Positions 41,669 to 64,000 of a stretch of DNA of 64,000 bases are shown here, in pieces. The translations under genes and the position numbers were made by a program. Origin of the DNA: Rhodospirillaceae bacterium. GTDB lineage: Bacteria > Pseudomonadota > Alphaproteobacteria > TMED109. How positions within the stretch are numbered: position 1 is the first letter of the stretch; every line of letters starts with the position of its first letter. The stretch covers positions 1 through 64,000 of the forward strand of contig CACEBX010000002.1 in NCBI GenBank assembly GCA_902557845.1, written 5' to 3'. The notes below the pieces were generated by a model that was not told the DNA's origin, made no database searches, and saw only the letters and a program-made list of their open reading frames with translations.

Positions 41669-42439
41669 ATGGATAACAAGGTTAATGTTTTTAAAAAAGA
41701 TTTAGATGAATGTATTAGAAGTACTAATTTTGATAACTTTTCTCTTTTGATGCTTCATGTGAAGCTGAAAACAATTAAAAAATTTTATAAAGAGTCATAC
41801 GAAAAATTAACAGGCGATATAATTAATTCATTAAAAAAAACTAAACCAAAAAATATTATAGTCCCAACATTTACTTATTCGTTTACCGAAAAAAAATGTT
41901 TTGATAATTTAAATAGCAGATCAGAGGTAGGTAAATTTTCTGAGACGTTTCGTTTAAAGCACTCTGTCTACAGAACTAATGATCCTCTTTTTAGTTTAGC
42001 TCATACAGAAAATTATGATAATGAATATAAAGAACTAAATAAGCTTGCAGCTTTTACTAAAGACTCTGTATGGAAATATCTTTTTAATAACAATGTAACT
42101 ATTGTAAATATAGGCTTAAGTCATCTTATTATAAGTTTAATTCATTATATTGAGTTTCTTTGCGATGTTCCTTATAGAAAAATATTTATACTGCAAGGAA
42201 TGATGATAGACAATAATGAGAAAGCCAACATATCCTATACTTTCTATGCCAGAGATAAAAATAGTAAATACGGATTAAATTGGGATAAAATAGAGAAGGA
42301 CTTAAAAAGTAATAGGCTTTTAAAGTATTCTGATAATAATATTTTGAATTTTAATTGGATAAAAGCAAAAGATTTAAGTAAATTTATTATGTTAAGAATT
42401 AAAAGTAACCCCTACTACCTTGTTCATAAAATAGATTAA
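41669..42439 (+). CDS. AAC(3)-fold acetyltransferase
   Basis: 256 aa with the pattern of the aminoglycoside N3-acetyltransferase family: IIVPTFTYSF, RSEVGKFSETFRLKH, VYRTNDPLFSLAH, and a late IHYIEFLCDVPYRK where the catalytic His-Glu region lies. Family members act on aminoglycosides, but relatives in polysaccharide loci are thought to acetylate amino sugars. The neighbours (a glycosyltransferase two bases downstream, glycan genes on both sides) favour sugar acetylation. I would not read it as antibiotic resistance. No Shine-Dalgarno is visible before the ATG. Confidence 0.75.
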   Translation: MDNKVNVFKKDLDECIRSTNFDNFSLLMLHVKLKTIKKFYKESYEKLTGDIINSLKKTKPKNIIVPTFTYSFTEKKCFDNLNSRSEVGKFSETFRLKHSVYRTNDPLFSLAHTENYDNEYKELNKLAAFTKDSVWKYLFNNNVTIVNIGLSHLIISLIHYIEFLCDVPYRKIFILQGMMIDNNEKANISYTFYARDKNSKYGLNWDKIEKDLKSNRLLKYSDNNILNFNWIKAKDLSKFIMLRIKSNPYYLVHKID

Positions 42440-43735: not shown

Positions 43736-45556
43736 ATGAAATCATTAGAATTATTTAGCTTTAAATTTGTATTTTGTGACAGCAAAAAAGCAATTCTATG
43801 GGCTAAAAAAAAAGGACTAAAAAATAATGCTACCATTTTGACTTCTTCACCTTCATTGCTAGAAGATAAAAAGCTAAAAACCTATTCTCTAGATAGATTA
43901 TGGTCTGTTAAAAAAATGGAGGTATTCAGAAATAAAATTTCTGTACATTCCAATATGGTTTTTAATTTTTTAATATCAAAAAAAATCTTAAAAAAAGAAG
44001 AAGCCTTGTTAGTTGCTGGAGCAGTTACTGATTACCATAAAACTATTTATAAGGCAGCTTGTTTAAAAAATATAAAAATAGATTATAAATATTTATTTTT
44101 GAAAATTATAGGAGACTATGGGAGAAAAAAACCTAAATTAAATCCACCTTGGGAAGAGCTATTTAAATATAATCAAAACCTAGAAGTTTTTAATTTTAAG
44201 CTTACCAAATTAGAAACTTCTAAATCAAGTAAAAGGCATAACTTTTTACTCTTTTTAAAAAGAATTTATATTGGGGGTATTGAGAGTATTTTTTATCGTT
44301 TAATGCTGAAGCTTTCTTTTATGTGGACAAAAAATAAAAAATTTTTCATTTTAGGTGAGAATGAATTATTGATAGAGACATCTTTTTTTCTAGGACTAAA
44401 GGGTTATAAACCAATATATTTAGATACTTCAAATAGAAGTCTAGGTATAAAAAAATATAACAATAGAACCTTAAAAAAAAAATTAATGCCATTAATTAAA
44501 ATTATTACTCAAAAATATGTTTCTAATGATTTTTTAAAAGCCAGTTTAGATATATTTTTTAAAGATTTAAATATAAGATTTGAAGAGTTTTATAAAAATA
44601 AATATTGTACTAATAAATATCTAAAAAAATTAAAAATACTATCCAAAAATGTATTACTTACCCCTAATCATATTAACCCTAAGAATTTAGGAATCTTATC
44701 AGCATTTAAAAAAAATAATATTCCTATTATATCCTTTCAACATGGTGTTACTCCAGAAATTACATCAGTTTCTGACGCCATAAGCTCTACTCATCCCGCA
44801 AATAATGTTGATGTCTTCATTGCTTTCAATGAAAACTCAACCAAAGTTGCTGAACAACAAACATATATTAAAAGTAAAAGCTTTATATCAGGATTGCCTA
44901 AAAGATACTTTAGAACAAATAAAAGGTTTAATCTAAGAGTTAAAAACAAAAAAGATGTATTATTTTTATCTGGAGTGTTATACAGAGGCAATGTAAGTAG
45001 CTTTAATGGAAACCTATCTGACATAAATAGATATTATAAAGAAAAGTATTTAATAAAAAATATCTTAACTAAAATTCCTCATAAAGTTTATTATAAGCCC
45101 TATCTGCTGGAAAATTTGAGATATCTGGATACAGACCCTGCAATAAAACTCATAAAAAAATCAGAAACTATTTCATTAATTGAAGAAAAAGTAGATGCAA
45201 GATATATTTTATCAGATTACAAAGTTTTAATTGTTCAAGGAGCATCTAGCACATTGTCCTGGTTAATATTCTCTAAAAAACCTATCATATTCATAAATGA
45301 TAAAGATCAATGTCCTGTAAATAAAGAAGTTACTAAATTATTAAAGACATCCTTATTTTACTTTGATAGCGACAATAAAAACTTTCAACAAGATATTTTA
45401 ACAATTTTATCTAAACCTATTAATGAAATAAAAAATCTTTATAAGAAAAAAGAAAAGAATAGGGAAAAGCTAATAAAGCTTTTTTTTAGCACCTACAGTA
45501 TGCACTCAGGAAAAAGGGCCGCGAATTTTATAGAAAATAATTATTTTAATAAATAA
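43736..45556 (+). CDS. Putative surface-polysaccharide transferase, unassigned family
   Basis: 606 aa, not confidently recognised. The C-terminal half looks like a GT-B type domain: IISFQHGVTPEITSV (about 340), DVFIAFNEN, FISGLPKRYF, KVYYKPYLLENLRYLD and SDYKVLIVQGASSTLSWLIF followed by KPIIFIN, which is reminiscent of glycerophosphotransferase-like and LIC12162-type transferases. The N-terminal 200 residues contain GAVTDYHKTIYKAACL and are otherwise featureless and lysine-rich. No signal peptide or clear transmembrane segment is visible. Its position between glycosyltransferase and GNAT genes supports transfer of a sugar or phosphopolyol during glycan assembly; that is inference. Confidence 0.55.
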   Translation: MKSLELFSFKFVFCDSKKAILWAKKKGLKNNATILTSSPSLLEDKKLKTYSLDRLWSVKKMEVFRNKISVHSNMVFNFLISKKILKKEEALLVAGAVTDYHKTIYKAACLKNIKIDYKYLFLKIIGDYGRKKPKLNPPWEELFKYNQNLEVFNFKLTKLETSKSSKRHNFLLFLKRIYIGGIESIFYRLMLKLSFMWTKNKKFFILGENELLIETSFFLGLKGYKPIYLDTSNRSLGIKKYNNRTLKKKLMPLIKIITQKYVSNDFLKASLDIFFKDLNIRFEEFYKNKYCTNKYLKKLKILSKNVLLTPNHINPKNLGILSAFKKNNIPIISFQHGVTPEITSVSDAISSTHPANNVDVFIAFNENSTKVAEQQTYIKSKSFISGLPKRYFRTNKRFNLRVKNKKDVLFLSGVLYRGNVSSFNGNLSDINRYYKEKYLIKNILTKIPHKVYYKPYLLENLRYLDTDPAIKLIKKSETISLIEEKVDARYILSDYKVLIVQGASSTLSWLIFSKKPIIFINDKDQCPVNKEVTKLLKTSLFYFDSDNKNFQQDILTILSKPINEIKNLYKKKEKNREKLIKLFFSTYSMHSGKRAANFIENNYFNK

Positions 45557-49573: not shown

Positions 49574-50422
49574 ATGCATGATCTCAAAAATTTTAACTTC
49601 AAAACAGAATTTAATACATTCATTATTGCTGAAATTGGAATTAACCATGGTGGGAAGATAAAAAAAGCACTTGAACTTATTAAATCTGCATCTAAAACAG
49701 GTTGCGATGCGGTTAAATTTCAAACTTATATTAGTGAAAAAAGAGCTCCAAAAAACAAATTTTCAGAACTACATGATATACTAAAAAGCTGCGAACTAAA
49801 ATTTTCTGAATTTTCGATTATTAAAAATTATTGTGATGAACTAAATATTGAATTTTTTTCCACAGCATTTGATGAGGAAAGCATTGATTTTTTAAATTCA
49901 ATAGAAATGAATATTTTTAAAATATCTTCATTTGACTTAATAAATCATAAGCTTATAGAAAAAATTTCTAGCCTAGGGAAAACCAATATATTGTCTTTAG
50001 GTATGGGAAATAAAAAAGAAATTGATACAGCCTCTAAAATACTAGCAAGAAATCCTAAATGTAAAAATGCTCTTTTACATTGCATATCATCTTATCCTAC
50101 AAAAGAAGAAAATGCTCACCTTGTCACTATAAATTTTTTAAAGGAAAAATATAAAGATTTTATTATCGGACTTTCTGACCACACCGTAAATATAAAAGTT
50201 CCTTCCTACGCAGCCGTTTTAGGTGCTCAAATAATTGAGAAACATTTCAAAATAAACGAAAATATGAATTGTATTGATGAAAGTGTTTCTATAACTGAAT
50301 TACAAATGAAAAAATTAGTTTCTGAAGTAAGGTTAATTGAAAAAATTATGGGTGTAGATAAAGAAGATCTGACAAAGGAAGAAAAAGATATAATAAAATA
50401 TAGAAGAAATAATATACTCTAA
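49574..50422 (+). CDS. NeuB-family nonulosonate synthase without SAF domain
   Basis: 282 aa TIM-barrel PEP-condensing enzyme. IAEIGINHGG, CDAVKFQTY, FFSTAFDEESIDFL, LLHCISSYPT, GLSDHT and EKHFKINEN cover the PEP- and metal-binding elements of sialic/legionaminic acid synthases. The chain stops right after KYRRNNIL, where family members normally continue with a linker and a 60-residue antifreeze-like SAF domain. The stop is clean and the next gene begins 11 bases later, so the domain is absent rather than frameshifted out. It should condense PEP with an amino-sugar aldose to a nine-carbon, or similar, acid. Confidence 0.85.
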   Translation: MHDLKNFNFKTEFNTFIIAEIGINHGGKIKKALELIKSASKTGCDAVKFQTYISEKRAPKNKFSELHDILKSCELKFSEFSIIKNYCDELNIEFFSTAFDEESIDFLNSIEMNIFKISSFDLINHKLIEKISSLGKTNILSLGMGNKKEIDTASKILARNPKCKNALLHCISSYPTKEENAHLVTINFLKEKYKDFIIGLSDHTVNIKVPSYAAVLGAQIIEKHFKINENMNCIDESVSITELQMKKLVSEVRLIEKIMGVDKEDLTKEEKDIIKYRRNNIL

Positions 50423-50433
50423 AAATTAATAAT

Positions 50434-51756
50434 ATGAATAAAAGTAATTTAGGCCAAAAATTATGGAAAAGAGCCCTTAAAGCAATGCCTGGCGGAAATG
50501 GTCTCCTTTCAAAAAGACCAGATAGGTATTTGCCTGAATATTGGCCTACATATTATTCAAAATGCAAGGGTATAGAAATTATAGACCTTAACGGAAATAA
50601 ATTCATTGATATGGCTCAAATGGCAGTAGGTTCGGCAATTTTAGGATACTCAAATAAAGAATTAGTATCTTCTGTCAATAATACATCATTAAATGGAGTA
50701 AATTGTACTTTAAACTCACCTGAGGAAGTTTATTTATCAGAAAAATTATTAGATTTGAATCCATTTGCTGGAGGCGTTAAGTTTGCTAAAACAGGGGCAG
50801 AAGCAATGAACATTGCTATAAGGATAGCTAGGGCATATGCAAATAAAGATAAAGTAGCATTTTCAGGATATCATGGTTGGAGTGATTGGTATTTAGCTAC
50901 AAATTTGGGAAAGTCTGATAATTTGAAAGGCCATTTGCTTCCAGGACTAAGCACAGATGGGGTTCCTAAAGGTTTAAAAAATACTGTAGTTCCTTTTATT
51001 TATAATGATGTAGATGATTTTAAGAAAGTTTTGATTAATAACCCAGATATTGGAGTTATATGTGTAGAAGGAGCAAGGTTTGATTATCCAAAAGATACTT
51101 TTTTAAAAGCTATTATGGATATAGCAAAAAAAAAAAAAATAATTATAGTTTCAGATGAAATCACCTCTGGATGGAGAGTTACGGATGGGGGAGTTTACAA
51201 AATTAATGGGTTTAAACCAGATATTGTTGTTTATGGAAAAGGCTTAGGTGGTGGTTATGCAATATCTGCTGTAGTTGGTAAAAAAAATATTATGGAAGTT
51301 GCAAACGATACATTTATAAGTTCTACGATGTTTACAGAGAGAGTTGGGTTTAGTGCAGCTTTAAAAACTATAGAAATTATTTGTCGTGATCAAGTATGGG
51401 AACATCTGATTGAAATGGGAACTATTATAGGGGATGCTTGGATGGACCTATCAATAAAACATAATTTAAAATTAAGTATTAATGAATTCAAACCTCTCAT
51501 ATCATTTAAACTAGACTATGGAGAAAAGAATAATTTAATAAATACTCTTTTTATTCAAGAAATGCTTAAAAGAGGCTATATTGCTTCTAATAGTATTTAT
51601 ATTTCTTATGCACATAAAAAAACAATTTTAAGTAAATATATAAAAGCTGTTGATAAAGTATTTGCAATAATGAAAAAAACTATTGAAGAAAATAAACTAG
51701 AAAAAAAACTTAAAGGATCTGTAAGGAGTGATGCATTTGGCAGGCTGACGAAATGA
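50434..51756 (+). CDS. Class III aminotransferase (glutamate-1-semialdehyde aminomutase-like)
   Basis: 440 aa PLP enzyme. GNKFIDMAQMAVGSAILGY, KFAKTGAEAMNIAIRIARA, SGYHGWSDWY, IIVSDEITSGWRV (PLP-binding Asp) and YGKGLGGGYAISAVVG (Schiff-base Lys) show the fold. It differs from true HemL in its insertions and sits within a sugar cassette, so a sugar or small-molecule amination is more likely than tetrapyrrole synthesis. The coding sequence has a run of 14 A at about 51126-51139 (IAKKKKIII), a possible slippage site. It overlaps the next gene as ATGA. Confidence 0.85.
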   Translation: MNKSNLGQKLWKRALKAMPGGNGLLSKRPDRYLPEYWPTYYSKCKGIEIIDLNGNKFIDMAQMAVGSAILGYSNKELVSSVNNTSLNGVNCTLNSPEEVYLSEKLLDLNPFAGGVKFAKTGAEAMNIAIRIARAYANKDKVAFSGYHGWSDWYLATNLGKSDNLKGHLLPGLSTDGVPKGLKNTVVPFIYNDVDDFKKVLINNPDIGVICVEGARFDYPKDTFLKAIMDIAKKKKIIIVSDEITSGWRVTDGGVYKINGFKPDIVVYGKGLGGGYAISAVVGKKNIMEVANDTFISSTMFTERVGFSAALKTIEIICRDQVWEHLIEMGTIIGDAWMDLSIKHNLKLSINEFKPLISFKLDYGEKNNLINTLFIQEMLKRGYIASNSIYISYAHKKTILSKYIKAVDKVFAIMKKTIEENKLEKKLKGSVRSDAFGRLTK

Positions 51757-52502
51757 AGTTATTAATTGTTCAAGCTAGAATGAGTTCAACTAGATTACCT
51801 GGAAAAGTTTTAAAAAAAATATGTGGAAAACCAATACTACTAATTTTATTAGAAAGAGTAATGTTGTCTAAAAATATTGATAAAGTTGTAGTAGCTACCA
51901 CCACTAATACTATTGATAAAAAAATAATAAAGTTTTGCACAGAATATGGGTTTGATTATTTTTGTGGAAGCGAACAAGATGTGCTAAATAGATATTATAA
52001 TTGTGCCAAACATTATAATGCTGAGCTAATTATTAGAATAACTTCAGATTGCCCACTTATAGATCCAATTGTAATTGATAAAACCATAAGTTTGTTTGAG
52101 AAAAATAATGTTGACTATGTTGCCAATACTATCCCTCCAGAAACAAGGAGGTGGCCTGACGGAAGTGATGTTGAAGTATTTTCGTACAAAGGGTTGTGTG
52201 AAGCTGAAAGGAATGCAAAAGGATTAGAACGAGAACACGTTACTTTTTATTTTTGGAAAAGAAAAAATCTTTATAAAACTTTGCAATTAGGAAATAAAAA
52301 TAATTGGGCCAATTATAGGTATACTTTGGACTACAAGGAAGACTTTATTAATTTAAAAAAAATAATTAATATGATGAATGAAAAGAATGTTTTTGGCTAT
52401 ACAGAAGAAATTATTGAAATTATAAAATGTAATTTTAAAGATAATAATTTAGAAAAAAAATTTTCATTTGGTTACGGTTGGAAAAAAAATAAAGCTAGAT
52501 AA
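51753..52502 (+). CDS. SpsF-like cytidylyltransferase
   Basis: 249 aa. The N-terminus LIVQARMSSTRLPGKVLKKI is the signature of SpsF-type CMP-sugar synthetases. FCGSEQDVLNRYY, IIRITSDCPLIDP and REHVTFYFW follow. It would activate the nonulosonate-like acid from the upstream NeuB-like enzyme as a CMP-sugar, though SpsF relatives may use other acids. It begins in the stop of the aminotransferase gene and overlaps the next gene by about 35 bases. Confidence 0.85.
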   Translation: MKLLIVQARMSSTRLPGKVLKKICGKPILLILLERVMLSKNIDKVVVATTTNTIDKKIIKFCTEYGFDYFCGSEQDVLNRYYNCAKHYNAELIIRITSDCPLIDPIVIDKTISLFEKNNVDYVANTIPPETRRWPDGSDVEVFSYKGLCEAERNAKGLEREHVTFYFWKRKNLYKTLQLGNKNNWANYRYTLDYKEDFINLKKIINMMNEKNVFGYTEEIIEIIKCNFKDNNLEKKFSFGYGWKKNKAR

Positions 52503-53544
52503 TAACATAAAATTACTCTTCAGATGTGATGCTGGAACTAAATTAGATTTAGGAACTGGTCATGTGGTTAGAGTTATTAGGCTAATTGAAAAATTATTAA
52601 CACAGCGCTTATTAAAAGAAAAACAAATTTATATCATGTATAGACATGAAAAAGGATTTGAATTAGCTAAATCCTTAATTAATAAATCAAATTATAATTT
52701 TAAAAAAATAGAATTTAAAGCTAATAAAATTAAGGTTGAGGAAGAACTAATATTAAAAAGCAATGCAAATTTAATTGTATTTGACGTATTAGAGGCTAAT
52801 AAAAACCTATTATTAAATTTAAAGAAAGCGAAAAGGTATTTAATTGGTTTTGATGATGTAGGTTTAGGAGCTCGCTATTATGACAACCATATAATTTCTT
52901 TAATTGAACCTAAGGTTCATAATAATAACTCCTATATTGGTTATAAATATCTTAACTTATCAGAGACAATAAAGAAGAAAACATACACGAGAAAAAATGT
53001 TAAAAATATTGTAATCTCAGTTGGAGGAAATGATAAAAGACAATTAGTTAAATTATTAATTTTAGTATTAAAATCTAACTCAAATAAATTAAATTATAGC
53101 TTTATTATAAGTAAGGAAACATACTTAAAAGTTAAAAAAATAAAAACAAAAATATTTAATAATAAAAATTTTATATTTCATGTAAACCCAAAAAATTATT
53201 CAGAAATAGTTGCTAGTGCGGATATAGGAATTGTAAGTGGCGGACTAACTTTATTTGAATTTGCATCAGCAGGAGTCCCAACAATATGTATACCTCAACA
53301 CAAACATCAGCTCATCAACATTGTAAAGTTAGAAAAAAAAAATATAACTATAGGTTTAAAAAATATGGTTAAAGTGGATAAATTAGAAATAAAAAAACAT
53401 ATAGACTATTTAAGATACAATTATATAGCAAGAAAAAAAATGTATAGTAACTCTATAAAGTATATTGATGTAAAAGGTTTAAAAAGAATAAATAAAATAT
53501 TTTATGAGGTTAAAAAAATAGTATTAAAAAACTTTAATAAATAA
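52468..53544 (+). CDS. PseG/SpsG-like sugar-nucleotide hydrolase
   Basis: About 358 aa. LLFRCDAGTKLDLGTGHVVRVIRL in outline holds the PseG motif GxGHxxR (key piece GTGHVVR) with the catalytic His. GGNDKRQLV begins the second domain, with IVSGGLTLFEFASAGVP and CIPQHKHQLIN near the nucleotide site. PseG cleaves UDP from the precursor sugar to give the free aldose used by the synthase, which fits the neighbouring NeuB-like enzyme. The start is uncertain: no ATG fits the N-terminus; TTG at 52468 is the only standard codon and lies inside the preceding gene, while ATA at 52507 would sit at the family N-terminus. Confidence 0.8.
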   Translation: MVTVGKKIKLDNNIKLLFRCDAGTKLDLGTGHVVRVIRLIEKLLTQRLLKEKQIYIMYRHEKGFELAKSLINKSNYNFKKIEFKANKIKVEEELILKSNANLIVFDVLEANKNLLLNLKKAKRYLIGFDDVGLGARYYDNHIISLIEPKVHNNNSYIGYKYLNLSETIKKKTYTRKNVKNIVISVGGNDKRQLVKLLILVLKSNSNKLNYSFIISKETYLKVKKIKTKIFNNKNFIFHVNPKNYSEIVASADIGIVSGGLTLFEFASAGVPTICIPQHKHQLINIVKLEKKNITIGLKNMVKVDKLEIKKHIDYLRYNYIARKKMYSNSIKYIDVKGLKRINKIFYEVKKIVLKNFNK

Positions 53545-53590
53545 AAATAATATTATAATGTAATAAAAATTAGAATTGATAAAAATATAA

Positions 53591-54742
53591 TTGAAAAAGA
53601 ATAAGAGAAAATTTATAACCTTTGGTGCGCCTAGCATTACGAACAATGAACTAGTGAGTATAAGCAGAGTACTTAAAAGTGGATGGCTAGGTACAGGTCC
53701 CAAAGTTACTTTATTTGAAAAAGCATTTAAAAATTACAAACAATCAAAGTTTGCCGTATCATGTTCATCTGCTACGGCTGCTCTTCACTTAAGCTTAATT
53801 AATTGCAAATTAAAACCAGAAGATGAAGTTATTACGACAGCAATGACATTCTGTTCTACTATTAACTCTATTATACATAGTGGAGCAAAACCTATAATTG
53901 TAGATATTGAAGCCTCTACTGGTAATATTGATATAAATCAAATTAAAAGAGTTATTAATAAAAATACAAAAGCAATCATTCCTGTACATTATGCTGGAAG
54001 GCCTTGTAATATGAACCAAATTATAGAAATAGCAAAGAATAGTAATTTGAAAGTTATAGAAGACTGCGCTCATGCCATAGAAACAGAATATAAGGGTAAA
54101 AAAGCAGGCACAATAGGTGACTATGGATGTTTTAGTTTTTATGTAACCAAAAATTTAGCAACAGGAGAAGGAGGTATGATACTTACTAAGTCTAAGCAAG
54201 CAGCAAAAAATCTAAAAATACTATCCCTGCATGGTATGGATAATGATGCTTGGAAAAGATATTCCTCTTTAGGATATAGACACTATAAAGTTATTGCGCC
54301 TGGTTTCAAATATAATATGACTGATATGCAAGCTGTTATTGGCATAGAGCAACTTAAAAGAATACATGTAAATTGGAAGGTAAGAAAAAAAATTTGGAAT
54401 AGTTATTTTGATGAGCTAAGCAAAACTAATTTATTTCTTACCCCTAAGGAAAGTTCTGGAAACAAATTAGGCTATCACTTATTTCCTATCATTCTAAATA
54501 AGAAAATAAGTATTTCGAGAGATGAGATGTTAGTAAAACTTAATAAATCTGGAATAGGTTGTGGTGTTCACTATGAAAGTATTCCTGCACACCCTTTTTA
54601 TAAAAAAAAATATGGCTGGAATTTAAATGACTATCCTATAGCTAAAAATTTTGGAAAAAATGTTTTGTCTCTTCCTATTACTCCTCTTATTAAAGATAAT
54701 GATATAGACTATATTATTGGCACTGTAAAAAAGTATTTATAA
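53591..54742 (+). CDS. DegT/DnrJ/EryC1/StrS sugar aminotransferase
   Basis: 383 aa PLP enzyme. SGWLGTGPKVTLFEKAF, CSSATAALHLSL, IPVHYAGRPCNM, IEDCAHAIETEYKGKKAG and FYVTKNLATGEGG (the internal-aldimine Lys) are all present. It aminates a 4-keto-6-deoxy nucleotide sugar, either the dTDP sugar from RfbB or a UDP sugar on the nonulosonate path. The start is TTG (53591), without a good ribosome-binding site. A TATAAT at 53554-53559 in the 46-base gap could give it a promoter of its own. Confidence 0.9.
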   Translation: MKKNKRKFITFGAPSITNNELVSISRVLKSGWLGTGPKVTLFEKAFKNYKQSKFAVSCSSATAALHLSLINCKLKPEDEVITTAMTFCSTINSIIHSGAKPIIVDIEASTGNIDINQIKRVINKNTKAIIPVHYAGRPCNMNQIIEIAKNSNLKVIEDCAHAIETEYKGKKAGTIGDYGCFSFYVTKNLATGEGGMILTKSKQAAKNLKILSLHGMDNDAWKRYSSLGYRHYKVIAPGFKYNMTDMQAVIGIEQLKRIHVNWKVRKKIWNSYFDELSKTNLFLTPKESSGNKLGYHLFPIILNKKISISRDEMLVKLNKSGIGCGVHYESIPAHPFYKKKYGWNLNDYPIAKNFGKNVLSLPITPLIKDNDIDYIIGTVKKYL

Positions 54743-54784: not shown

Positions 54785-55540
54785 ATGATAATTAGAAAAT
54801 TAGATTTTAAATTTGATTTATATGGATATAAATCTCTATTATGTTTTTTAAAAAAAGAAAAATTTAAGTTTAAATTCTTTTGGGAAAGTCTGTACAAAGG
54901 AAAAAATATTATTATGAGGCATGATGTTGACTTTTGCCCATTAAGAGCTTTAAAAATAGCGGAAGTTGAAGAAAAATATAAAGTAAAATCTACATATTTT
55001 TTTTTGGTAAATACAAATCTATACAATATTTATTCTGATTTAAATAAAGATGTCCTAAAAGAAATTTTAAAGAAAGGTCATAAAATAGGTCTTCATTTTG
55101 ATGCTTCTTTATATAAAAAAGAAAATGAACTTCACCAAGCCTGTTTATTAGAACTTAAAATATTAGAAAATTTAATAAAAAAGAAAGTTCAAATAATAAG
55201 TTTTCATAGACCTAGTATGGAAAAGCTCTCATTAAATAAAAAAATAGCTAATATAGAACATACCTATATGGAAAAATATACAAAAAGAATTGATTATTGT
55301 TCAGACTCTCAAGGTGCTTGGCGCTTTTCAAATCCAAAAAGCTTAATAGAAAAAAACAATTCAAAAAAGAATTATTGTTTGCACTTATTAACCCATCCAA
55401 TATGGTGGACAACACCATCTAACCTTAGTCCAGCTAAAAAAATAGAATACCATATTAATAATTACTTAGAAAAATATAAAAAGCTTGCAGCTAAAAATTG
55501 CAAACCTTATTCAAAACACTTAAGAACATTGAAAAAATAA
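54785..55540 (+). CDS. Polysaccharide deacetylase-like protein
   Basis: 251 aa. NodB-type landmarks: IIMRHDVDFCPLRAL (metal-binding Asp-His region, about 40), KSTYFFLVN, KGHKIGLHFDASLY (His pair) and IISFHRPS. No signal peptide is visible, so it appears cytoplasmic. It may de-N-acetylate a lipid-linked or nucleotide-linked sugar before other acyl groups are added. It ends the rightward operon that begins at rfbB. The substrate is unknown. Confidence 0.75.
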   Translation: MIIRKLDFKFDLYGYKSLLCFLKKEKFKFKFFWESLYKGKNIIMRHDVDFCPLRALKIAEVEEKYKVKSTYFFLVNTNLYNIYSDLNKDVLKEILKKGHKIGLHFDASLYKKENELHQACLLELKILENLIKKKVQIISFHRPSMEKLSLNKKIANIEHTYMEKYTKRIDYCSDSQGAWRFSNPKSLIEKNNSKKNYCLHLLTHPIWWTTPSNLSPAKKIEYHINNYLEKYKKLAAKNCKPYSKHLRTLKK

Positions 55541-55590: not shown

Positions 55591-56193
55591 TTAATTTTTA
55601 ATGCATTCGCCGGCCTTAACTAAACTATTATCAGGAATAATACTTCCTGGTAATATTGTAGACCCTGCTCCAATTAAAGAATTTTTTCCAATTTTTACCC
55701 CTCCACATACAGTAGCACCTGGCGCTATATGACAATTATCATTTATGTCACAATCGTGATCAATTGAAGCATTGGTATTTATTATAGTATTCCTTCCTAT
55801 TACAGATGAGTTTTGTACTATTGCACCAGCCATAATTTGTGCTCCTTCTAATATTAATGAGCTTTTTGAAACAAAAGAGAATTTATGTATGATAGTTAGA
55901 AATGAAAAGCCTTTTTTTTTAAATTTATCATAAACCTGCTTCCTTTTATTAGGTTTCACACTTATCATACCTAGTCCATTACACAAAATAAACTTTTCTT
56001 CAGGATAGTTTTTAATTAAAAGATCATTTTCTCCAATTAGCTTTAGTGGGTAAAAGAATTCATTTAATTTTTTTTTAATATCCATAATTGCTATAACATT
56101 TAAAGTACTTTTAGACAGAGTGTCATATACTACTTTAGCATGACCTCCAGATCCTATAATTATAACTTTTTTTCTTTTATTATCTAATCTCAT
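55591..56193 (-). CDS. NeuD/PglD-type sugar O/N-acyltransferase
   Basis: 200 aa. N-terminal Rossmann-like segment KKVIIIGSGGHAKVVYDTL binds the sugar nucleotide. The C-terminal left-handed beta-helix of hexapeptide repeats (about 100-200) includes NASIDHDCDI with the probable catalytic His, and the acetyl-CoA site GKNSLIGAGSTILPGS. Relatives acetylate UDP-4-amino sugars (PglD) or sialic acid (NeuD). It overlaps the methyltransferase gene by four bases. Confidence 0.88.
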   Translation of the reverse strand: MRLDNKRKKVIIIGSGGHAKVVYDTLSKSTLNVIAIMDIKKKLNEFFYPLKLIGENDLLIKNYPEEKFILCNGLGMISVKPNKRKQVYDKFKKKGFSFLTIIHKFSFVSKSSLILEGAQIMAGAIVQNSSVIGRNTIINTNASIDHDCDINDNCHIAPGATVCGGVKIGKNSLIGAGSTILPGSIIPDNSLVKAGECIKN

Positions 56194-57083
56194 TTGATAT
56201 TTTTTTTAATAAATATTTCTAGCATAAAAAATTTAGAGAAAAATTTTGCCAAGACATTACCAATGATTGGGAAAGTAAATATTTTTTGAAAAAGTAATCT
56301 AATAAATAAAGTAATCCCTTTTAATTCTGTATTATCTGATTTAATTGAAAGTCTTTTATAGGTAACATCATTAACTAAAAGGTTATTTTTTTTTATTTTA
56401 TTTTTTAAGGACCATGGCCAATCTAAAAAGAGATGGCTGTTAATAAACTCTCTTTTCTTAAGGTTATTCTTGAAGAATAATTTGTAAAAACTTTTTGGCA
56501 ACCAATGTATAAGCCACACTTTGGTATGTGCTTCATAAGGAACAAGCCTATGTGGAACTTGATGGTATATAACACCAAAATCTTTAATCACTCTCTTTTC
56601 CTCTAATATAAAATCTATTTTTTTTGAAGGCTCTAAGTGTTCAATTACCTGCTGGGAGAAAACTAAATCAAAAGTTTCATTCTTGAAAGGCAGTTTATAC
56701 CCATTATATATTTTTACTCTATTAAGAGTACTGTCTTTAAAAATCAGCTGAAAGAACTTATTTAAATTTCTTACGGCTTTTACCACATCTGGGTTTTTAT
56801 CAAAATTTACAGTTACACCCCAAATATCCTTAAAATCTTTAAGAGCTAAGAAACAAAGAGTTGCGCCTCCACCACAACCATGATCTAAAAGCTTAATATT
56901 TTTATTTTTACAACTAGGTAATAAGTTCTTAAAGTTCATAAATTCTCCCAAGTGATACGGGTTTAGATTTTTAACTCTTTTGTCATTTTTGAGCTGCATC
57001 CATAATTTCAATTTTTTTGAGTCAGAAGTTTCATCATGAACCATTTTTTTTATATGATGCAGAAAATAATTCCAATCATTCAT
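56190..57083 (-). CDS. Class I SAM-dependent methyltransferase
   Basis: 297 aa. Motif I KLLDHGCGGGATLCFL (about 60) and the post-motif FDLVFSQQVIEHLEPSKK (about 135) mark a Rossmann-fold methyltransferase. The C-terminal 60 residues are hydrophobic and basic and may touch the membrane. In context it probably O-methylates a glycan residue. A Shine-Dalgarno (AGGA) lies about eight bases before the ATG. A dyad ATACTTTATAAGTAT (57119-57133) lies upstream. Confidence 0.82.
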   Translation of the reverse strand: MNDWNYFLHHIKKMVHDETSDSKKLKLWMQLKNDKRVKNLNPYHLGEFMNFKNLLPSCKNKNIKLLDHGCGGGATLCFLALKDFKDIWGVTVNFDKNPDVVKAVRNLNKFFQLIFKDSTLNRVKIYNGYKLPFKNETFDLVFSQQVIEHLEPSKKIDFILEEKRVIKDFGVIYHQVPHRLVPYEAHTKVWLIHWLPKSFYKLFFKNNLKKREFINSHLFLDWPWSLKNKIKKNNLLVNDVTYKRLSIKSDNTELKGITLFIRLLFQKIFTFPIIGNVLAKFFSKFFMLEIFIKKNIK

Positions 57084-57171: not shown

Positions 57172-58266
57172 TTATTTTCTTTCTAAAAATTTTTTCAACT
57201 CAAAAACTAAACTATTATCTTTTATTTTAGCATTGAGTAAGTTTAGAATAAATGTTTTTTTTATTAAGGTTCTACATCTTAAAAAACCATTTTTAATAAG
57301 AATAGAACTATTGGTTTTTTTTATTTCATAAGCATCCTCCCACAATGTTACTACAGAAATATTATTTGCCACACCCCATTTAAAAACAAAACCTAGCAGT
57401 TCATTAAAAATAGATTTATTTAAATATAGAATATCCTTTATTTCAACGTTTTTAAAATTTTTTTCGTTAATTTTATTAAATACAACATATCCGACAAGTT
57501 TTTCTTCTTTATAATATCCATAGATTAAATATTTAAAATATGGGTTTTTTAAATATCTCCAGCTTAAGTATTTTTCATTTCTATTAATCATTAAGTAATG
57601 ACTTGGTGCACTTTTCTTTATGATTAAAAATAATTTTTTAATATCCTCAAATTGTTCTTGTTTCATCAAAACAATATTATTTTTTTTTCTTACAAAGAAA
57701 AATAGGAGAGGCTTAATTATGAGCTGCTTCCAAAAAAAGTTAAGAACTTTTAAAAATACTTTCTTAAAAAAACTAGTTTTATTATTTTTTTTATAAAAGT
57801 GATAATCATATCTCAAAATTAAACTACTAGTATATAAGTTAATTTTTTTTACAGAATAACCACCATATAAATAAGACTTGTGGCCTAGTTTATTTGGAAA
57901 ACCATATGCAAGAAAAACTTTTTCTTTTTTCATAGTCTTTATAGCACTTTTTACTACTTCTCTAAAGACTCTTTGGTTTGTCCCGGTTATTTTTCTTATA
58001 AGTTCTAGATTTGCATAAGATCCTTCTGACTTTGCTACTAGAACTTTTTTATTATTAATAATAAACTGGCTTACTATAAAGGAATTATGTGCTACGTAAG
58101 TCCCATTAATTTCTGCTATAAAACTGTAACCAGCTTTATTACTATGCAAATACTCCCAATTCCATTTTTTGACATTTAAATCCGGCAATGCTGCCTTTAC
58201 TATTTCAAATTGCTTTTTACTTATTTTTTTTAAATTAACTTTTTTGATAATTAGTTTATTTTTCAT
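57172..58266 (-). CDS. GNAT-family acetyltransferase
   Basis: 364 aa. KKWNWEYLHSNKAGYSFIAE, KSEGSYANLELIRK and AYGFPNKLGHKSYLYGGY in the first half, then WRYLKNPYFKYLIYGYYKEE and a second GNAT-like half, match the double-GNAT proteins common in surface glycan loci. It is the last gene of the leftward trio with the asparagine-synthetase-like and ceramidase-fold genes, overlapping the latter by four bases. The acyl donor and acceptor are unknown. Confidence 0.7.
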   Translation of the reverse strand: MKNKLIIKKVNLKKISKKQFEIVKAALPDLNVKKWNWEYLHSNKAGYSFIAEINGTYVAHNSFIVSQFIINNKKVLVAKSEGSYANLELIRKITGTNQRVFREVVKSAIKTMKKEKVFLAYGFPNKLGHKSYLYGGYSVKKINLYTSSLILRYDYHFYKKNNKTSFFKKVFLKVLNFFWKQLIIKPLLFFFVRKKNNIVLMKQEQFEDIKKLFLIIKKSAPSHYLMINRNEKYLSWRYLKNPYFKYLIYGYYKEEKLVGYVVFNKINEKNFKNVEIKDILYLNKSIFNELLGFVFKWGVANNISVVTLWEDAYEIKKTNSSILIKNGFLRCRTLIKKTFILNLLNAKIKDNSLVFELKKFLERK

Positions 58267-59498
58267 TGACTACAATAAAGGTCTAGCACTTTATTTATGC
58301 TTTTTCTAATTGCTTCTTCATTCTCTTTTGAAATTCTACTACTGATGTTAAAGTTTACTCTGCTTTTATCTACCTCATAACCACCTTTCATTATATCATC
58401 ATTAGTAGGCAAATACCCTATCATTCCATTGGAATACCCTACACATACAATAGTAGTATTATTATATTTACTAATATTATAACCGGATAATATTTCACCA
58501 TTTAAGAAAATAATAATAAGTTTGCCCCAATTCCAAACTAGAATATTTAGTTTTTTATCAAAAATAGTTCCGTCTTCTAACTTAAGATTGTAGTTAACCT
58601 GACAAGAATCTTTAATATTATCAATAAAAAAAACATACTTTTCCTTTTCTGCATTTATTACTGACCTGACTATTGAGTTGCTAATCTTATTTGCATCACT
58701 ATGATTTGGCTTTCTAAACCTTTTTCCCACCAAAAATGTAATAATATAATCTTTAATAGTCTTGTTTTTTTTTATCATCCTTGGTCTGATATCTCCGCAA
58801 AAGCCCTGTAAGAAAAATATCATATTGCTTCTATTTTTTAGATTTTTTTTAATTTTTCCAATATAGTCAGCCCCTATTACATTTTTAGGCGCTGATACAG
58901 GATGACAATTTACTTTGATAATTGACCCTTCAATTTTTCTAGTTTTTTTATTTATTAGATCTATTAAATCAATACTTCCATCAATTTTCTTACTAAAATT
59001 AGGCAAATTTTGCATACTATATTTAAACCCTTTTTTAAAGTTTAATGCTGACTTTCTTCTGTTTATGGAAAACTCATGATTAAAAAGCCTTTTGAATCCC
59101 ATAATAATATTTTTCTTTGGTTTCTGTATCGCAGTAGCATAGCATTTCAATAATGAAGTAATTATATAATTATCAAATTCTTCAGAATATAATGGAAATT
59201 TAATCGTACTCTCAGGGTTCGGTGTTCCATGTGTATGGCTCGCAGATAACACTATTTTTTCTATATCTAGATTTTGTTCTTTCGCAATATATTCTCTTAC
59301 TAACTTAACACATTTATCTGAAAACCAAATGATATCAGAAGTAATTAAAATATTCTGTATAGAGTTTTTTATTTTTAGTATTAGCACACTACAATAACAA
59401 TGCTCTGATATGCTTGTCTGAATATTGTATTTAAAAAAGTTTTTTATATTAATTTTTTTATTATGTGACTGTATATACAAAAGACTCTTAGTATTCAT
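58263..59498 (-). CDS. Neutral/alkaline ceramidase-fold protein, catalytically divergent
   Basis: 411 aa. Family landmarks are present: SASHTHGTPNPES (His88, His90), NCHPVSAPKN (His199), LNGEILSGYN (Glu) and GYSNGMIGYLPT with GGYE (Tyr region), which would hold the zinc as in neutral ceramidases. The GDVSPN box that carries the ceramidase nucleophile Ser reads GDIRPR (about 235-240), with Arg in place of Ser. No signal peptide or transmembrane helix is visible, unlike secreted ceramidases. I take it as a cytoplasmic zinc protein of unknown reaction, perhaps on an amide in glycan synthesis. It overlaps both neighbours by four bases. Confidence 0.75.
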   Translation of the reverse strand: MNTKSLLYIQSHNKKINIKNFFKYNIQTSISEHCYCSVLILKIKNSIQNILITSDIIWFSDKCVKLVREYIAKEQNLDIEKIVLSASHTHGTPNPESTIKFPLYSEEFDNYIITSLLKCYATAIQKPKKNIIMGFKRLFNHEFSINRRKSALNFKKGFKYSMQNLPNFSKKIDGSIDLIDLINKKTRKIEGSIIKVNCHPVSAPKNVIGADYIGKIKKNLKNRSNMIFFLQGFCGDIRPRMIKKNKTIKDYIITFLVGKRFRKPNHSDANKISNSIVRSVINAEKEKYVFFIDNIKDSCQVNYNLKLEDGTIFDKKLNILVWNWGKLIIIFLNGEILSGYNISKYNNTTIVCVGYSNGMIGYLPTNDDIMKGGYEVDKSRVNFNISSRISKENEEAIRKSINKVLDLYCSQ

Positions 59499-61108
59499 TT
59501 AACAAGATCCTTTTTCTTTAAGTATTTTTCTACATGCCATGCAACTGAACTTCTTGCTACTCGTTTATCTTTAATTATATCAAAGTAATTAAAATATGGG
59601 TAGTGAGGATTTAATTCTGTAAAATAAGATAAATACTTTTTATCAAATTTTTCCCATTTCTTTTTTCCTTTAAATAGAAAAAATATTTTAAATAAGTTTC
59701 TTAGATATTTTAAAAAAGCTGGAGAAATATAATATTTGTTAATTGGCATATTTTTCCAAACATTTCCCCAGTTATTTGAAATAAGCATATATTTATATAA
59801 GGCTTGATTTAGTTTAAATTTATAAGGTACCTTATTCCAGAATTCTAAATAATGGTCATGCCAAAGTGGCAACTCCCAATTTATATTAAAAAAATCATAA
59901 ACTCTTTGTCCTTGAATTACATAATTGCTTTGTCTATTTATAAATTCTACATATTCATAAATTTTGTAAATCTCTTTTTCAGGTAAATTCATAATACTTT
60001 TAGGAATACTTTTTAAAATTAAATTCTTTATTTTATCATATTGTCCTGTAGAAAAGTAATTTTCCCACAATGAAAAATGCTTTAGCAATATGTAATTAAG
60101 TATAAAGTCTAACTTAGAGTTTTTATTCGTTAGGCTTTCGTTATATCTAGGCAAATGTCCACCTGATATAAAATCACCTGTATTACCATTTATAATTACA
60201 GATTCTTTATGAATAACTTTTCCTGAAATTAATTTTTGAACTGCAAATAAATCTTGAACATATGACCAAGATGCTAGAGTATCAGAAAATGCCGTATATT
60301 TTTTATAGGTATCAGATTTAAAATTGTAATTTTGATTTCTATTATTTAATTCTACAAAATACCAAGGATAGTTAAGTTTTTTAGCAAGTGTTTTTGCCGT
60401 TACAGCTTCAAAATTATTTTTTTTTCCATACGAATAGCATGCTACATTTTTTGCTTTTAAATGGTGCAAAGCAGAGACAATTAGTCTTGAGTCGTACCCT
60501 CCTGATAAGGGAACTATTATTTTTCTTCCTTTGTTTCTATTTATTAATTCTTCAATAATAGATAATGTTATATTAGATAATTTTTTACTTAATCTACTTT
60601 TACTATCTTGGAGTAGCTTTATTTTTTTTATAAAAGTATAGTAGTTAAAATATTTTAATGTTTCATTTTTTATTAAACATGCTTCCCCTGGGAGGAGTTG
60701 CCACAAGTTTTCATATAAAGTATTCCTGCCTATACAGTAACCCGACATCCTCACGGATAATACTGAGTCTATATTATTTATATTAGTTATTTTTTTTTTA
60801 AGACTAGGAGCATGATTACTAAATTGATATTTCTTTCCTATTTTTGCAACAAATATAGGAGTAGACTTTATTCTATCCACAAAAGCCAAAGATAAACTAT
60901 TATTTATTTTTAAGATTACAGCATAGTTTCCCTTAAAATTTTTTAAATGTTTTTTTAAAAAACTTATACTTAATTTATCTAGATTTTTATTAATTTTTGA
61001 TACAAAAATTTTAAGTAAATCTATGTCTATATTTCCAAAATAATAAGTATCTATTTTTTTTATCTTGATATTGTTCCAACTTTTACTATTTTCTATATAA
61101 GAAAGCAT
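59495..61108 (-). CDS. Asparagine-synthetase-like ATP-dependent amide synthase, no glutaminase Cys
   Basis: 537 aa. The N-terminal 150 residues have the Ntn-glutaminase outline (FKGNYAVILKIN, FVDRIKSTPIFV) but begin MLSYIENS, without the catalytic Cys2. The synthetase domain carries the PP-loop VPLSGGYDSRLIV (SGGYDS at 202-207), which binds ATP. Like beta-lactam synthetase relatives, it could activate a carboxylate and use ammonia or another amine. In glycan loci such enzymes amidate uronic acids. It is first in a coupled trio with the ceramidase-fold and GNAT genes. Confidence 0.8.
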   Translation of the reverse strand: MLSYIENSKSWNNIKIKKIDTYYFGNIDIDLLKIFVSKINKNLDKLSISFLKKHLKNFKGNYAVILKINNSLSLAFVDRIKSTPIFVAKIGKKYQFSNHAPSLKKKITNINNIDSVLSVRMSGYCIGRNTLYENLWQLLPGEACLIKNETLKYFNYYTFIKKIKLLQDSKSRLSKKLSNITLSIIEELINRNKGRKIIVPLSGGYDSRLIVSALHHLKAKNVACYSYGKKNNFEAVTAKTLAKKLNYPWYFVELNNRNQNYNFKSDTYKKYTAFSDTLASWSYVQDLFAVQKLISGKVIHKESVIINGNTGDFISGGHLPRYNESLTNKNSKLDFILNYILLKHFSLWENYFSTGQYDKIKNLILKSIPKSIMNLPEKEIYKIYEYVEFINRQSNYVIQGQRVYDFFNINWELPLWHDHYLEFWNKVPYKFKLNQALYKYMLISNNWGNVWKNMPINKYYISPAFLKYLRNLFKIFFLFKGKKKWEKFDKKYLSYFTELNPHYPYFNYFDIIKDKRVARSSVAWHVEKYLKKKDLVK

Positions 61109-61371: not shown

Positions 61372-61524
61372 ATGTTTAAATTTAAAAAAGTTTATCTCAG
61401 CCATATACAGAATACCTGTAACTATTCACTAAGGTCTAGGAATATTAAAAAACTTAATATGCTTAATAACTCTTCAGGAAATGTAAATGAATTATATTTA
61501 AGCCTCTGGCTATTTAATCAATGA
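61372..61524 (+). CDS. Possible small leaderless ORF, 50 aa
   Basis: A 50-codon frame starting MFKFKKVYLSHIQ and ending SLWLFNQ. Its ATG lies five bases after an extended -10, the same layout as several other genes here. Its stop overlaps the next ATG (ATGA, 61521-61524), as in coupled operons. The protein has a basic N-terminus, one cysteine and no recognisable domain. An AT-rich region gives few random frames of this length, but chance remains possible. Confidence 0.35.
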   Translation: MFKFKKVYLSHIQNTCNYSLRSRNIKKLNMLNNSSGNVNELYLSLWLFNQ

Positions 61525-62507
61525 AAAAAAATTTAACAAAAAATGATATCAAGTGGAAAGCTGGTGAGCATATAGTCTCTTATTGTGGTAATCTACGGTT
61601 GGATGAAAAACTATTAATTATTTATGATGATACAACAGAAAATCTTGTAAATTTTATAGAAAAACCTGCATCTAATATCACAAAAAATATAAAAAAAAAT
61701 AAAATTGAAATATTAGAACAGCACGGTTTAGAGCCTCCTTCAGAAACCGCAGCTTTAATGAAGGAATCTAATTTAATAATAGCAATAACAAGCAAGTCAT
61801 TAGCACATTCTAGTGCTAGGAGTAATGCTTGTTTAAATGGAGCTAGATATTTAAGTTTGGCAGAATATACACAAGATGTTTTAGAAAATGAAGCTATTTT
61901 TGGTGTAAAAAAGGACAAAATTAATTATCTTAAAAAGATGGAGCAGATTCTTAACCAAGGTAAAATTGTTAAAATAAATTCAAGTCTAGGAACAAGTCTA
62001 GAATTAGATATTGAAAAAAGAATTGCTAATAATTGCCCTGGCTTTGTTGAAAAACCAGGAGAACTAGGATCACCTCCTGATATGGAAGTGAACATTAGCC
62101 CTATTGAAGAGTATAGTTTTGGTAATTTGGTAGTTGATGGGTCTATAACTCATCCAGATTTAGGTTTATTAAAAAGTCCTATAACTTTAGAAATAAAAAA
62201 AGGAAGAATATATAAAATTTATGGAAAATCAGAAAGCAAAATATTAAATGATTTATTTAATAAACAAAATAATGAGAAAACAAAAATTTTAGCAGAGTTA
62301 GGCATTGGATTTAATGAAATGGCTAAGCTATGTGGAAATATGCTAATTGATGAAGGAGCTGCTAATTGTATTCACTTTGGCTTTGGTTCTAACTCAACTG
62401 TAGGAGGGAAAAATGAAGTATCATTTCATTTAGACTTCGTCATAAAAAATGCAGATATGTTTGTAGATAATGTTTTGATAGTAAAAAATGGAAAACCTGT
62501 GTTATGA
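61521..62507 (+). CDS. M29 aminopeptidase/dihydroxypyridine-dioxygenase-like metalloprotein
   Basis: 328 aa. The C-terminal half matches the aminopeptidase T/NicX superfamily: ILAELGIGFNEMAKLCGNML, DEGAANCIHFGFGSN, VGGKNEVSFHLDFV. The Glu, His and the His-x-Asp pair are the metal ligands in studied members. The family includes leucyl aminopeptidases and the iron dioxygenase NicX, and sequence alone does not separate them. The ATG overlaps the small ORF and the stop overlaps the ligase gene (ATGA at 62504-62507), so it works with the ligase. Its presence in a glycan island is unusual. Confidence 0.75.
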   Translation: MKKNLTKNDIKWKAGEHIVSYCGNLRLDEKLLIIYDDTTENLVNFIEKPASNITKNIKKNKIEILEQHGLEPPSETAALMKESNLIIAITSKSLAHSSARSNACLNGARYLSLAEYTQDVLENEAIFGVKKDKINYLKKMEQILNQGKIVKINSSLGTSLELDIEKRIANNCPGFVEKPGELGSPPDMEVNISPIEEYSFGNLVVDGSITHPDLGLLKSPITLEIKKGRIYKIYGKSESKILNDLFNKQNNEKTKILAELGIGFNEMAKLCGNMLIDEGAANCIHFGFGSNSTVGGKNEVSFHLDFVIKNADMFVDNVLIVKNGKPVL

Positions 62508-64000
62508 AAGTAGAGCATATTCCATTTGGAAAAGGGTTTAATAGTGTTGTTAATTTATATAAAAATAATATTGCATTTTTAGACACAAATACTAATAAGA
62601 AATTTACTTATAGTGAAACTAATATTCTAGTAGATAAGTGTTTAAAATTTTTAAAACAAAATGGTTTAAAGAAGAGTGATACATTTCAGGTAATTCTTCC
62701 TAATTCATTAGAATTAATTATTCTTTTTTTAGCAGCTGGAAAAGGAGGCTTTAACATCATGCCTAGTTCCACTGATTCTACTGACTCTGAATTAATTCTA
62801 TGTAATGACATAATTAAAGCAAAGTTAGTGATTACGGAAAAAAAAAATAAGCTAGATAAAATTTTTAAAAAGAAATGTAAATTAAAAAAAATACCTCTAG
62901 AGTGTAATTTTTCTTGGCTTTCTAATACTTTAGATAAAAGTTATTCTGAAGGGGGAAAATTATTTATAATGACTAGTGGAACAACTGGGCAACCTAAAGC
63001 TATGGTAATCAGTCTTGATAGACTATGGTCTAGTGCAATAAATTTTAGTAAAATGTATAAAGATCTAAATTCTGAATCATGTATATGGAATTACTTACCT
63101 ATGTCATATTTAGGTGGGTTATTTAACCTTTGTTACATACCTTTAAATAAAGGAAGTAAAATTATAATTTCCTCATCTTTCGATAGCTTAATGGCATTGA
63201 CATTTTGGCAAAATATAAAAAAGTATCAGATAAATGTTCTTTGGTTGGTTCCTAGCTTATTGAGATTGCTTATGAAACTTTCTAAAAGAGTAAGTATTGA
63301 AGAAAACCTAAAGCTTAGTGCTAAAATTAAATTTGCTATGTTAGGCACTGCGCCTATATCACTAAGTGAAAAAAAGCTTTTTGAGAAAACCTTTAATATA
63401 CCTCTTTATGAAAACTATGGGCTTTCAGAAACTACTTTTATTTCTGCTGAAACTCCTTTAAATCATAAGAAAAGAGGAGAAAGGACTGTAGGGCATATAT
63501 TACCCTATATCAAAACAAATTTAAAAAATAAAAAAAAATTAAAAACAGAATTAAAAATAAAGTCTCCTTTTCTATTTCTAGGTTATCTTGATGAAAATGG
63601 CAAAACATCTCTTCCTACAGATAATAAAGGATATTTCTCTACAGGTGATATATGTACTATTAAATATAATAACCTAAGATTAGATGGTAGAGCTAGAGAT
63701 ATTATTAAAAAGGGTGGCTATTTTGTCCAATTAAGGGAGATAGAGGAAAAGTGTAAGAGTATAGATGAAATAGAAGATATTTCAGCATTAGCAATTCAAG
63801 ATGACTTTTATGGAGAAGACTTTGTGATATTTTTTTGCAGCACCAATCCTGAAACAGCAAAAAACAAATTAAAAAAATTTTTAAATATAAACTTTAGTAA
63901 AAGAAAACATCCAAAAGAAATTTTTCACATAGCCTCTTTACCAAAAACAAAAAGTGGAAAGACAAAAAAAAATGAACTTCTTAAATTTGTTCCATATTTT
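62504..64000 (+). CDS. Class I adenylate-forming enzyme (acyl-CoA synthetase-like), 3' end cut
   Basis: 499 codons visible, no stop before the window ends. A3 loop FIMTSGTTGQPKAM (157-162 TSGTTG), A5 YENYGLSETT, A7 STGD, A8 RARDIIKKGGYFVQ and the A10 lysine in KTKSGKTKKNEL (near 485) are all present, so only a few residues are missing. It would adenylate a carboxylic acid and pass it to CoA or an amine. The HPKEI segment before A10 is typical of acyl-CoA ligases. Its partner is the M29-like protein. Confidence 0.85.
   Translation, partial: MKVEHIPFGKGFNSVVNLYKNNIAFLDTNTNKKFTYSETNILVDKCLKFLKQNGLKKSDTFQVILPNSLELIILFLAAGKGGFNIMPSSTDSTDSELILCNDIIKAKLVITEKKNKLDKIFKKKCKLKKIPLECNFSWLSNTLDKSYSEGGKLFIMTSGTTGQPKAMVISLDRLWSSAINFSKMYKDLNSESCIWNYLPMSYLGGLFNLCYIPLNKGSKIIISSSFDSLMALTFWQNIKKYQINVLWLVPSLLRLLMKLSKRVSIEENLKLSAKIKFAMLGTAPISLSEKKLFEKTFNIPLYENYGLSETTFISAETPLNHKKRGERTVGHILPYIKTNLKNKKKLKTELKIKSPFLFLGYLDENGKTSLPTDNKGYFSTGDICTIKYNNLRLDGRARDIIKKGGYFVQLREIEEKCKSIDEIEDISALAIQDDFYGEDFVIFFCSTNPETAKNKLKKFLNINFSKRKHPKEIFHIASLPKTKSGKTKKNELLKFVPYF

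Follow-up and report, generated by a model that had tools for sequence, protein, structure and literature searches.

A ceramidase-fold protein coupled to a cysteine-less AsnB-like synthetase and a GNAT in a bacterial glycan island belongs to a branch of the fold linked to amino sugars

The first 64,000 nucleotides of contig CACEBX010000002.1 (assembly GCA_902557845.1), from a Rhodospirillaceae bacterium, form the window analysed here. Within a glycan island, they carry three overlapping genes that encode an AsnB-like amide synthetase (ASNL), a ceramidase-fold protein (CER) and a GNAT-like acyltransferase. We tentatively propose that this trio is a cytosolic module for N-acyl exchange, which would tailor an amino sugar for a surface glycan; the sugar would probably be a nonulosonic acid or a precursor of one. 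The more useful finding concerns the clade to which CER belongs, a branch of the ceramidase fold that is cytosolic and linked to amino sugars, and in which arginine is the usual letter at the position of the ceramidase serine. The three genes are as follows.

59495-61108, minus strand: ASNL, AsnB-like amide synthetase without the glutaminase cysteine, 537 amino acids, first gene of the run
58263-59498, minus strand: CER, ceramidase-fold zinc amidohydrolase-like protein, 411 amino acids
57172-58266, minus strand: two-lobed GNAT-like acyltransferase, 364 amino acids

The first-pass annotation of this DNA, made from the letters alone, had described three leftward genes joined by four-base overlaps, and the open reading frame coordinates agree, with ATGA at both junctions (ASNL/CER and CER/GNAT). 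The source genome is a 1.3 Mb draft; among named organisms, Candidatus Pelagibacterales bacterium NP101 is closest to it. In this congener (G002) the order ASNL-CER-GNAT is retained at identities of 58-60, 53 and 52%, respectively, and the trio has different flanks, namely genes for adenosine-5′-phosphosulfate (APS) kinase, ATP sulfurylase and a pyruvate-kinase-like protein. A CER pattern scan of the genomes of 84,980 species returned 48 loci and found the trio in NP101 only, although pattern scans overlook divergent copies.

The three genes might instead be mere neighbours in a fast-shuffling glycan island rather than members of one pathway, with overlaps that result from compaction of a small AT-rich genome. 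Overlapping or near-overlapping genes are indeed numerous in the source genome, the trio is known from two congeners only and, across the full set of homologues, CER and ASNL mostly occur apart from each other. However, the order persists at 52-60% identity despite a complete change of flanks, which argues for coupling beyond chance. Moreover, convincing matches to the GNAT are confined to the two genomes with this subtype of CER, and N-acyltransferases recur next to CER in other lineages. We therefore consider chance proximity quite unlikely.

CER on its own has no Pfam or NCBIfam match, and PF04734, the family of neutral/alkaline non-lysosomal ceramidases, gives none even at E 1. A family profile built from 24 homologues gives E 5e-31 for human neutral ceramidase (4wgk) and E 5e-24 for the Pseudomonas aeruginosa enzyme (2zws). 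When the predicted structure of CER (mean predicted local distance difference test score, pLDDT, 92) was compared with solved structures using Foldseek, neutral ceramidases were the only relatives of note, with E values from 3.9e-22 (2zws) to 1.8e-19 and template modelling scores (TM-scores) of 0.70-0.74 by query length (2zws 0.70). These profile and model matches support the earlier assignment of CER to the fold of the ceramidase catalytic domain, which is shared over its whole length. Two other searches were set aside: neuroligin matches from a single-sequence PDB search with CER are due to chance, and a PF04734 search of whole genomes gave no match anywhere, controls included, and hence is uninformative.

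Residues D55, H88, H90, R147, H199, E335 and Y362 of CER align in register with the ceramidase site and are conserved in nearly all homologues. Going by the sites of 2zws and 4wgk, H88, H90, R147, H199, E335 and Y362 comprise the putative zinc ligands and the catalytic His and Arg. That the likely zinc residues are retained had been noted in the first-pass annotation, as had the presence of Arg at the Ser of GDVSPN.

59229-59237, minus strand: His88-Thr-His90 of CER, putative zinc/catalytic histidines; H88 and H90 are invariant in the 24 homologues, and in a wider set where present
58902-58904, minus strand: His199 of CER, putative zinc ligand, invariant in the 24 homologues
58785-58787, minus strand: Arg238 in the GDIRP box of CER, replacing the ceramidase Ser, placed by alignment to GDVSPN of 4wgk
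58494-58496, minus strand: Glu335 of CER, putative zinc ligand, invariant in the 24 homologues; the wider set was also examined
58413-58415, minus strand: Tyr362 of CER, putative zinc ligand, invariant in the 24 homologues; the wider set was also examined

The box of CER reads QGFCGDIRPR, and Arg238 occupies the Ser column of the human enzyme. This Ser is usually named as the ceramidase nucleophile, and its loss might mean that an Arg-box CER is no longer a hydrolase and serves as an N-acyltransferase or for substrate binding only. Neutral ceramidases are able to run in reverse, which would suit the former role. HDAC and LpxC, on the other side, are zinc-dependent amidases that function without an active-site Ser. 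Across CER homologues the Ser column holds various letters (R, N, D, M, Q, G, S and others), while the residues of the zinc site show strict conservation and the other site residues are constant, a pattern consistent with a zinc-water amidase. Neutral ceramidase itself has been grouped among Zn2+-dependent amidases with active sites resembling those of HDAC and LpxC (PMC9436119), so the missing Ser weighs less, and a non-hydrolytic role is in our judgement very unlikely. We also rejected the Arg box as the sign of a dead enzyme, since Arg is the norm of the clade and the remaining site is conserved. As a guess, Arg238 might hold a negatively charged part of the substrate, such as a carboxylate or phosphate.

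The shared fold could also point to a true ceramidase that acts on the bacterium's own or foreign ceramide. However, CER has Arg for Ser and no ceramidase C-terminal part (411 versus 630-690 residues; TM-score 0.47 by target length). As judged by eye rather than with a predictor, its N-terminus has no hydrophobic stretch and, as the first reading also held, no signal peptide. Given in addition its glycan setting and the amino-sugar catabolic partners of its clade, this explanation is extremely unlikely.

A tree of 59 CER homologues, built with the Ser/Arg column left out, places the window protein in a clade of 19 members (Shimodaira-Hasegawa-like approximate likelihood ratio test, SH-aLRT, 99). 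Arg occupies the box in 14 of these 19 members and in 0 of the 40 homologues outside, and is therefore old and clade-specific rather than a recent loss. Secreted ceramidases, among which the Arg variant might have been found, are absent from the clade, whose PF04734 scores run from no match to above the cut-off (L041, 49.5 bits).

Part of the clade lies in glycan loci. The CER gene stands downstream of a carbamoyltransferase gene and upstream of one for an MBOAT O-acyltransferase in L007 and L037, adjoins a carbamoyltransferase gene in L041 and follows an aminotransferase gene in L032 and L031. It is placed between genes for a methyltransferase and AsnB in L009, and between those for GNAT-type proteins and AsnB in L042, where the AsnB bears its Cys and the gene for an Acetyltransf_6 GNAT is divergent. 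Further partners include Wzx-like flippases and DegT aminotransferases. CER has an N-acyltransferase gene as its immediate neighbour in the trio, in L040 (a GNAT, together with a flippase), in L026 (aminoglycoside-3-N-acetyltransferase type) and in L042 (the Acetyltransf_6 GNAT). The L026 gene (9104-9988), from an Alteromonadaceae genome, abuts CER, and the window encodes another protein of the aminoglycoside-3-N-acetyltransferase type in a glycan setting (41669-42436).

Other members, in Photobacterium, Vibrio, Sporosarcina, Pseudovibrio and Tissierella, occur with genes for a sodium:solute symporter, an N-acetylglucosamine 2-epimerase and a SIS-domain protein, accompanied in most cases by NagB- and NagA-like enzymes. 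Amino-sugar catabolic operons with CER were recorded in Vibrionaceae, Bacillota and Pseudovibrio (L027 5099-11847, L046 5079-11855, L028 5120-11751, L038 3102-9952 and L029 5053-9970). The common thread of the clade's loci is amino sugars and N-acyl groups, with N-acyltransferases recurring as neighbours. In the open literature searched we found nothing relevant on glycan clusters or amino-sugar operons that contain ceramidase-like genes, and no described function for the Arg-type clade. SrfJ (PMC9430895) was set aside as a precedent, being a glycosylceramidase-like enzyme of a different kind.

ASNL matches the Pfam family Asn_synthase (PF00733) above its cut-off (E 7.7e-8) and does not reach the equivalog TIGR01536 (40.8 bits versus the 267.1 required). 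Its N-terminus, MLSYIEN, lacks Cys2, as had been recognized, and the first ~57 columns of its profile lie opposite 108 residues of human ASNS, meaning that the glutaminase domain is shortened in its first half as well. The PP-loop is intact.

60485-60511, minus strand: PP-loop PLSGGYDSR of ASNL (residues 200-208); L201, S202, G204, D206, S207 and R208 are invariant in 23 sequences

The nearest solved folds to the ASNL model (pLDDT 90) are the TsnB9 hydroxyamidotransferase, carbapenam synthetase, human ASNS and beta-lactam synthetase (E 3.5e-14 to 7e-13). At ~10-14% identity, ASNL shares with AsnB, the two lactam synthetases and TsnB9 a two-domain layout and a PP-loop synthetase domain. It differs from AsnB in the absence of Cys2 and the shortened glutaminase half, and the lactam synthetases likewise have no working glutaminase; its model gives ASNL, too, the Cys-less form of the AsnB fold.

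Full-length ASNL proteins (~520-585 residues, without the glutaminase Cys and with an invariant PP-loop) are encoded in 16 of 97 relatives, and the family also occurs in further members of the class. Their setting is glycan islands, where a canonical Cys-bearing AsnB is often near, and to judge from these sequences the loss of Cys is a trait of the family. Each of the four CER genes in the window's family has an ASNL gene within 10 kb, and CER lies within 10 kb of 4 of the 16 ASNL genes. In congener G001, where ASNL stands without CER, a contig end was rejected as the reason, since the 0.5 kb past ASNL shows no CER start.

PIG-L was considered as a substitute for CER beside ASNL because of loci L102, L103, L108 and L109, and failed its control: PIG-L is near 4 of 16 ASNL genes and 10 of 66 NeuB genes without ASNL (Fisher p 0.46). 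Glycan islands of this kind often contain PIG-L genes, which have no specific link to ASNL, and G000 and G010 contain PIG-L as well as CER. PIG-L/LmbE, NodB and NagA carry out the reaction proposed for CER, metal-dependent N-deacylation of amino sugars, using unrelated folds.

The occurrence of ASNL in many glycan islands that lack CER could favour plain amidation. ASNL would use ammonia, either free or from another protein, on a sugar carboxylate, while CER would deacylate elsewhere or trim wrong amides, so that the two would act on separate nitrogens. O-antigen relatives of AsnB (e.g. WbpS) convert uronic acids into uronamides, and a nearby Cys-bearing AsnB could supply the nitrogen chemistry. 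However, plain amidation leaves unexplained the tight overlap of ASNL, CER and GNAT and the presence of ASNL near all four family CERs. In addition, the nearest solved folds of ASNL include enzymes that use amines or a hydroxamate donor, though ordinary asparagine synthetases as well. We regard plain amidation as possible, if unlikely.

The window GNAT has only sub-threshold Pfam matches (Acetyltransf_17, E 1.7e-4, 22.6 bits versus a curated cut-off of 25) and no match in the PDB. Among the 97 relatives, convincing matches are restricted to the source genome and G002. NeuD/PglD and GNAT acetyltransferases are known from nonulosonic-acid pathways, and the window likewise has acetyltransferases in an island with NeuB, although the trio GNAT differs from the known sugar enzymes in these faint matches.

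A protein resembling a zinc N-deacylase, a glutamine-independent synthetase and acetyltransferases, all in a nonulosonic-acid island, together suggest acyl exchange on a sugar nitrogen. The likeliest role of CER is that of a cytosolic zinc N-deacylase with an amino sugar as its substrate, and ASNL and the acyltransferases would re-acylate the amine; the fold and site are supported, whereas the substrate and the order of reactions are what we infer. CER, by means of its zinc centre, would remove an acyl group from the sugar nitrogen. ASNL would adenylate a carboxylic acid and couple it either to the amine so released or to an amino acid, and its missing glutaminase site would fit an amine as acceptor in place of ammonia. 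A simple acyl group could be added at the same or another position by the GNAT or NeuD acetyltransferases.

Several observations weigh against this N-acyl exchange. The searches turned up the exact trio in just two congeners, and 12 of the 16 full-length ASNL genes have no CER within 10 kb, so ASNL is independent of CER. The association between the two (4/16 versus 2/66, p = 0.012) comes from a small test on related genomes. CER lacks the Ser of true ceramidases, and in the catabolic operons, which already contain a NagA-like deacetylase, it need not be an N-deacetylase. Finally, the GNAT beside CER in L040 has no detectable homology to the window GNAT, and the same is true of GNATs next to CER elsewhere.

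The observations of the first-pass annotation are thus confirmed, while its interpretation is supported in part. The glycan setting, the fold and the sites are among the supported points. Its proposal that the trio makes and edits an unusual amide on a sugar is reasonable, and is weakened because most CER homologues occur without ASNL and GNAT. Its use of Arg as a cue to novelty was too strong: Arg is present, but it is the norm of the clade rather than a lesion of the window protein, and Cys-less ASNL is a common glycan-island family.

A wider and more doubtful proposal is that an undescribed form of amino-sugar diversification exists, in which a widespread cytosolic ceramidase-fold branch, active in both glycan building and amino-sugar catabolism, strips N-acyl groups from sugars and, in this island, ASNL attaches another acid or an amino acid to the freed amine. 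If so, many bacterial ceramidase-like proteins would probably be sugar N-deacylases. This would affect how amino-sugar operons in Vibrio and Photobacterium and surface-glycan loci in several phyla are annotated, and would help to explain the large Cys-less AsnB family in nonulosonic-acid islands. Cultured clade members (Photobacterium kishitanii, Vibrio sinensis and Sporosarcina) make the function of CER directly testable.

The leftward run is longer than the trio. An 88-base gap after GNAT is followed by two more genes on the same strand, which overlap by four bases, and the run meets a rightward block tail-to-tail.

56190-57083, minus strand: S-adenosylmethionine methyltransferase, next in the leftward run (Methyltransf_11, E 4.4e-10)
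55591-56193, minus strand: NeuD/PglB-type sugar acetyltransferase, last of the leftward run (TIGR03570, E 2.4e-53, above cut-off)
54785-55540, plus strand: protein resembling NodB-type polysaccharide deacetylases, in convergent orientation to the run (Polysacc_deac_1, E 6e-4, below cut-off)
49574-54742, plus strand: nonulosonic-acid-type block encoding NeuB-like, class-III aminotransferase, cytidylyltransferase, PseG-like and PseC-like proteins

In G010, a similar methyltransferase gene is located two genes before CER (L007 6063-6989). The island starts past ribosomal and RNA polymerase genes, and its earlier genes encode RmlB/RmlA-like proteins, an SDR, a GNAT, a glycosyltransferase, the aminoglycoside-3-N-acetyltransferase-type protein and WbqC. 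Homologues were absent from the viral contigs, phages and plasmids searched, and a viral, phage or plasmid origin was rejected.

Other features of the window include a glycan-island protein of 606 amino acids with no Pfam match at E 1e-4 (43736-45553) and, divergent from the trio, an M29-peptidase-like gene that overlaps an acyl-CoA-synthetase-like gene (61521-64000). The class-III (glutamate-1-semialdehyde-like) aminotransferase and the cytidylyltransferase recur near ASNL (window 50434-51753, L109 399-4116, L137 from 7916 and L151 from 7915); they are apparently fused in L151, and a PIG-L gene is sometimes present (L109, L137). Genes for APS kinase, ATP sulfurylase and the pyruvate-kinase-like protein co-occur in the family's glycan islands, often near ASNL (L010 4088-7091, corresponding to G000:C2 ~68.1-71.1 kb; L006 4101-7133; L101 2716-5720; L151 from 1587; L156 from 4104), and this set may supply activated sulfate for glycans.

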